59,340 bases of DNA from assembly GCA_025699025.1 (NCBI GenBank), contig JAILWJ010000001.1, positions 201,148 through 260,487 of the forward strand. The letters run 5' to 3'. Shown here piece by piece: positions 17,897-17,988 of this stretch (position 1 is the first letter of the stretch; each line of letters starts with the position of its first letter). The notes beneath the pieces were generated by a model that saw only the letters and a list, made by a program, of their open reading frames with translations, was not told the DNA's origin and searched no databases. The position numbers were made by a program, and so were the translations under genes. The DNA is from Nitrosarchaeum sp. GTDB lineage: Archaea > Thermoproteota > Nitrososphaeria > Nitrososphaerales > Nitrosopumilaceae.

Positions 17897-17988
17897 TGGA
17901 CCGGACGGGATTTGAACCCATGACCTTTGCGGGATTTCTCCTTACGCAGTGTGAGTGCGTCATCCAAACCAAACTAGACGACCGGTCC
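17897..17988 (-). tRNA. tRNA-Val (anticodon CAC) with variable-loop intron
   Basis: The 92-nt gene gives a normal 75-nt tRNA once 17 nt are removed: acceptor GGACCGG/CCGGTCC, anticodon stem ACGCA/TGCGT with loop CTCACAC (anticodon CAC), T stem ATGGG/CCCGT, discriminator A. Unspliced, the variable region would be 22 nt, which tRNA-Val never has. After removal of 17926-17942 the variable loop becomes AGGTC, identical to the tRNA-Thr in this window. CCA is not encoded. Confidence 0.92.
17926..17942 (-). other. 17-nt non-canonical tRNA intron (variable loop, after nt 44)
   Basis: A bulge-helix-bulge is formed: central 4-bp helix TGCG/CGCA (exon with intron), 3-nt bulges TAA and AAG, and an inner hairpin GGA-GAAA-TCC. 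Cleavage after the second base of each bulge removes 17 nt. The central helix uses anticodon-stem bases 39-42, so the precursor must refold after splicing. Non-canonical intron positions are known in Crenarchaeota and Thaumarchaeota; the splicing enzyme is the tRNA endonuclease. Confidence 0.85.

Follow-up and report, generated by a model that had tools for sequence, protein, structure and literature searches.

Short introns defined by a bulge–helix–bulge (BHB) motif and lying outside the canonical 37/38 site are well documented in archaeal tRNA genes. The program tRNAscan-SE 2.0 includes a Thaumarchaeota-specific BHB model, with 107 noncanonical tRNA introns reported in that phylum (PMC8450103), and the same source gives 71 introns in 46 genes for Pyrobaculum calidifontis (PMC8450103). 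Thaumarchaeota possess splicing endonucleases of the α2β2 type (PMC4090602), an arrangement associated with a broad substrate range (PMC6379350). The window analysed here, the whole 59,340-nucleotide stretch of DNA from Nitrosarchaeum sp., an archaeon of the ammonia-oxidising type, contains a tRNA-Val(CAC) gene with a 17-nt insert, which is almost certainly a noncanonical archaeal BHB tRNA intron at position 44/45, presumably spliced by the known pathway. It occurs in most of the family Nitrosopumilaceae, is a member of an already well-described class, and is less unusual than a previous reading made from the sequence alone had implied; a literature search found the class and no paper naming the exact tRNA-Val 44/45 intron, for which an entry in a tRNA database is likely.

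The tRNA-Val(CAC) gene occupies positions 17897..17988 on the minus strand, which reads GGACCGGUCGUCUAGUUUGGUUUGGAUGACGCACUCACACUGCGUAAGGAGAAAUCCCGCAAAGGUCAUGGGUUCAAAUCCCGUCCGGUCCA from 17988 to 17897, and specifies a 92-nt precursor in which CCA is not encoded; the neighbours include genes for both subunits of a CoA ligase and for isoleucyl-tRNA synthetase (IleRS). The 5′ exon (17943..17988, minus strand), made up of the acceptor 5′ strand, the D arm, the anticodon arm and nt 44, is delimited by the splice prediction from BHB geometry and by uninterrupted orthologues. The 17-nt intron, AGGAGAAAUCCCGCAAA, corresponds to precursor nt 47–63 and to window positions 17942..17926 (17926..17942, minus strand), and is defined by BHB geometry, by orthologous inserts of 17–24 nt and by its precise absence in the genera g4, g8 and g9. 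The 3′ exon (17897..17925, minus strand), comprising G45–C48, the T arm, the acceptor 3′ strand and the discriminator A, follows from the Rfam alignment and the splice prediction. The anticodon loop, CUCACAC, is uninterrupted, the insert being located between nt 44 and 45 and not at 37/38. Its removal is predicted to give a 75-nt tRNA with stems of 7, 4, 5 and 5 bp and a 5-nt variable loop, AGGUC, the same in length and arrangement as the uninterrupted orthologues. Moving both cut sites by 1 nt leads to an identical product, since both sides end in A, and the boundaries at nt 47–63 were chosen because of the BHB geometry. The sequence-only reading of a tRNA-Val(CAC) with a 17-nt intron in the variable loop thus holds in its coordinates, anticodon, size and boundaries, and the strand, which it left unstated, is the minus strand; its claims that a normal cloverleaf forms only without 17926–17942 and that the site is noncanonical, after nt 44, are likewise borne out, by the four stems and 5-nt variable loop of the 75-nt product and by BHB cut positions that join nt 44 to nt 45.

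The insert and its flank, UGCG-UAA-[GGA-GAAA-UCC]-CGCA-AAG, form a strict BHB with two 3-nt bulges and a 4-bp helix between them, enclosing a 3-bp inner hairpin, GGA-GAAA-UCC. The 5′ strand of the central helix is UGCG (17945..17948, minus strand), which is also nt 39–42 of the anticodon stem, and its 3′ strand is the intronic CGCA (17928..17931, minus strand), both assigned from the sequence and by comparison with orthologues. The 5′ bulge, UAA (17942..17944, minus strand), and the 3′ bulge, AAG (17925..17927, minus strand), have predicted cuts at UA^A and AA^G, that is, after the second base of each, releasing an intron of exactly 17 nt. Of 200,000 random 17-mers matched in composition, 319 gave this geometry. 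Because UGCG also belongs to the anticodon stem, the precursor and the spliced tRNA represent alternative ways of folding. The proposed competition between central helix and anticodon stem is real: nt 39–42 serve in both helices, and the energy model places the two arrangements close together, at −26.8 and −25.2 kcal/mol. The BHB central helix is present in the unconstrained minimum-energy fold of the precursor; the outer exon helix, of only 2 bp (A-U and C-G), finds no favour in the energy model, a point against the intron reading. The motif is as first described, with its TGCG/CGCA central helix and GAAA-capped inner hairpin, and the GAAA cap is not kept in relatives.

In the proposed pathway, UGCG, as the 3′ half of the stem of the anticodon arm, would pair in the precursor with intronic CGCA to form the strict 3-4-3 BHB. 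A heteromeric endonuclease composed of a catalytic α and a structural β chain would cleave each bulge behind its second base, RtcB would join the exons, and UGCG would re-pair to give the normal anticodon stem. Both the cutting and joining steps and what becomes of the excised 17 nt are presumed by analogy with the known pathway, and the precise absence of the insert in relatives lends indirect support to exact excision. The genome (1.7 Mb in 4 contigs, 99.99% complete) encodes RtcB (PF01139) and two tRNA-splicing endonuclease paralogues of family PF01974. The α-like paralogue (the L043 ORF) has the catalytic Tyr/His/Lys pattern and finds its best matches among crenarchaeal-type α chains, and the β-like paralogue (the L044 ORF) lacks the active-site His. 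Judged by their sequences, the endonuclease genes correspond to the α2β2 arrangement, with one catalytic and one non-catalytic EndA paralogue, and assembly into a heterotetramer would be expected from the family and from published work (PMC4090602). Two copies of the family were found in 23 of the 24 relatives checked, including the intronless g9.

A pattern extending from the anticodon loop to the T loop was used to scan 400 genomes of the class. Among the matches listed, family members outside g9 contain inserts of 17–24 nt at the same site, and the g9 gene is uninterrupted (CUCACAC-UGCGG-AGGUC). A further check found the intron in g2, g5, g7, g20 and g22, with g4 and g8 intronless, and the outgroup families have precisely intronless orthologues; in the intronless orthologues a normal 5-nt variable loop lies exactly at the predicted junction. 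Of 76 named loci around orthologous IleRS genes (Nitrosopumilus, Nitrosarchaeum and other Nitrosopumilaceae), 56 hold the tRNA gene, and all 56 genes carry the intron.

The comparison set consisted of 59 intron sequences, 55 of them distinct, which are related, so that counts do not represent independent events. In all 55 distinct introns the central helix has an invariant core of three pairs, GCG/CGC, and both 3-nt bulges are retained in every one, the 5′ bulge as TAA or TAT (55/55) and the 3′ bulge as AAG, AGG or ATG (55/55). The outermost central pair is A-T instead of T-A in some of the 59 introns and G-T or A-C in three; it is non-pairing in a single orthologue (G296, an A-C mismatch), which counts against the intron reading. 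Pairs 1–3 of the inner helix are paired in every intron through G-C and A-T alternatives, compared with 40% in shuffled sequences. The inner hairpins covary, from G-C to A-U, with loops that vary in sequence and length, and the intron is kept with this covariation in more than 10 genera. At nt 43, the intronless Val(CAC) genes of g4, g8 and g9 (G015, G040 and G159) have G, and intron-bearing members have U43, which is the first base of the 5′ bulge; the intron thus seems to limit which base the exon can have there.

In a tree built from the IleRS of 27 genomes, the intronless g4 and g8 group together (support 88/93) and g9 stands apart, within an otherwise intron-bearing family whose outgroup families are intronless; intron presence and absence require three changes on this tree, in agreement with a single gain and two losses. 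The most likely history, reconstructed from these sequences, is that the intron was acquired once, at the base of the Nitrosopumilaceae, and that two or more lineages later lost it precisely; the count of losses is not firm, because support for the g4–g8 grouping is moderate and single-gene trees can mislead. Inserts also occur farther afield. A tRNA-Val(CAC) gene in a genome of the same order and another family (G136, L092:1980-2065) has a 13-nt insert with a BHB fit at 43/44 and a shifted central helix, CAGC/GCUG, which could be a slid intron or have an independent origin, and a more distant genome (G348) has an insert near the same site; both inserts may be independent or shifted. The orthologue set cleanly illustrates a tRNA intron that was acquired a single time, drifted in its loop and its length with the splicing signal kept, and disappeared scarlessly on two or more occasions.

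The intron itself is probably without a cellular function. That it is kept for a role, such as blocking mobile-element integration or aiding precursor modification, is compatible with a noncanonical intron at 44/45 and is an unlikely addition to it. Long retention in the family speaks for such a role, as does a published proposal, reviewed in PMC4090602, that tRNA genes serving as integration sites are shielded by their introns, whereas the precise losses in at least two lineages speak against it. Thaumarchaeal elements also enter intron-containing tRNA genes, nearly always in the 3′ part (PMC6563490), which the intron of tRNA-Val(CAC) leaves intact, and because loop sequence and length vary freely, only the splicing signal is conserved. 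Slightly less probable again is that family-wide retention reflects selection on the precursor rather than simple persistence, for example through a folding checkpoint in which no anticodon stem exists until splicing is done.

Retention of the extra 17 nt as a long variable arm, which would make this a class-II-like tRNA-Val, is very improbable. In its favour, both ARAGORN and Rfam model a long variable region and the insert holds a short hairpin, but conservation falls on the BHB bulges and on the central helix formed with the anticodon stem, neither of which a variable arm needs. The normal loops of intronless orthologues sit at the predicted junction, and the other two valine tRNAs of the genome, Val(TAC) and Val(GAC), have no intron and normal variable loops; the comparison of intron-bearing with intronless orthologues led to the rejection of a retained arm. 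The same comparison rejects, as having a negligible chance of being correct, a decaying pseudogene with a random insertion: its tRNA score is below that of most tRNAs of the genome, but the exons, arms and BHB are intact, the intron is conserved and covarying across genera, and this is the sole Val(CAC) gene found. A second intact tRNA-Val(CAC) gene, named beforehand as an observation that would count against the intron, was sought throughout the 99.99%-complete genome and is absent from the Rfam and ARAGORN matches; the inventory, based on an Rfam tRNA search of the genome together with ARAGORN, contains a single gene for each of Val(CAC), Val(TAC) and Val(GAC).

For annotation, the noncanonical intron at 44/45 matters mainly in that it must be taken out to write the mature tRNA, which generic finders display with a long variable loop. 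Standard finders had been expected to mis-score or miss the gene, and the first expectation is the one that stands. The Rfam tRNA model RF00005 aligns to the locus with an insertion in the variable region and a score of 48.9 bits, against 59.4 bits for the intronless g9 orthologues, and ARAGORN models the intron as a long variable loop; both nevertheless detect the gene and assign the right anticodon, ARAGORN calling it tRNA-Val(CAC).

Other tRNA genes of the genome (G000) also appear to be interrupted. Those for tRNA-Met, tRNA-Tyr, tRNA-Leu(CAA) and tRNA-Ser(GGA) (L033, L034, L037 and L039) are found by ARAGORN only with introns allowed, and the Leu(CAA) gene holds AGGAAATCCC, close to the Val intron hairpin AGGAGAAATCCC. 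Three weak Rfam tRNA matches (L040:1-401, L041:1-401 and L042:1-351) are missed by ARAGORN. Inspected by eye, the first is a candidate tRNA-Gln(CTG) with introns in the D region and at 37/38, the second a candidate initiator-type tRNA-Met with a D-arm BHB intron, AGCC-AGA-CTATTTAG-GGCT-AGG, and the third a candidate tRNA-Arg(CCT) with a D-loop intron; these putative genes are ones that a generic finder would really miss.

Among known systems, the closest are the noncanonical tRNA introns of Thaumarchaeota (PMC8450103), which share the short BHB insert outside 37/38, the two-paralogue endonuclease and the same phylum-level class, and from which no distinguishing feature of the Val(CAC) intron was found. 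The noncanonical introns of Thermoproteales, such as those of Pyrobaculum, are alike in their BHB, scattered positions and heteromeric endonuclease, and differ in belonging to another clade, whose genomes contain many more introns. Canonical archaeal tRNA introns at 37/38 have the BHB motif and the presumed enzymes in common with the Val(CAC) intron, whereas the latter is positioned at 44/45 and uses the 3′ strand of the anticodon stem for its central helix.
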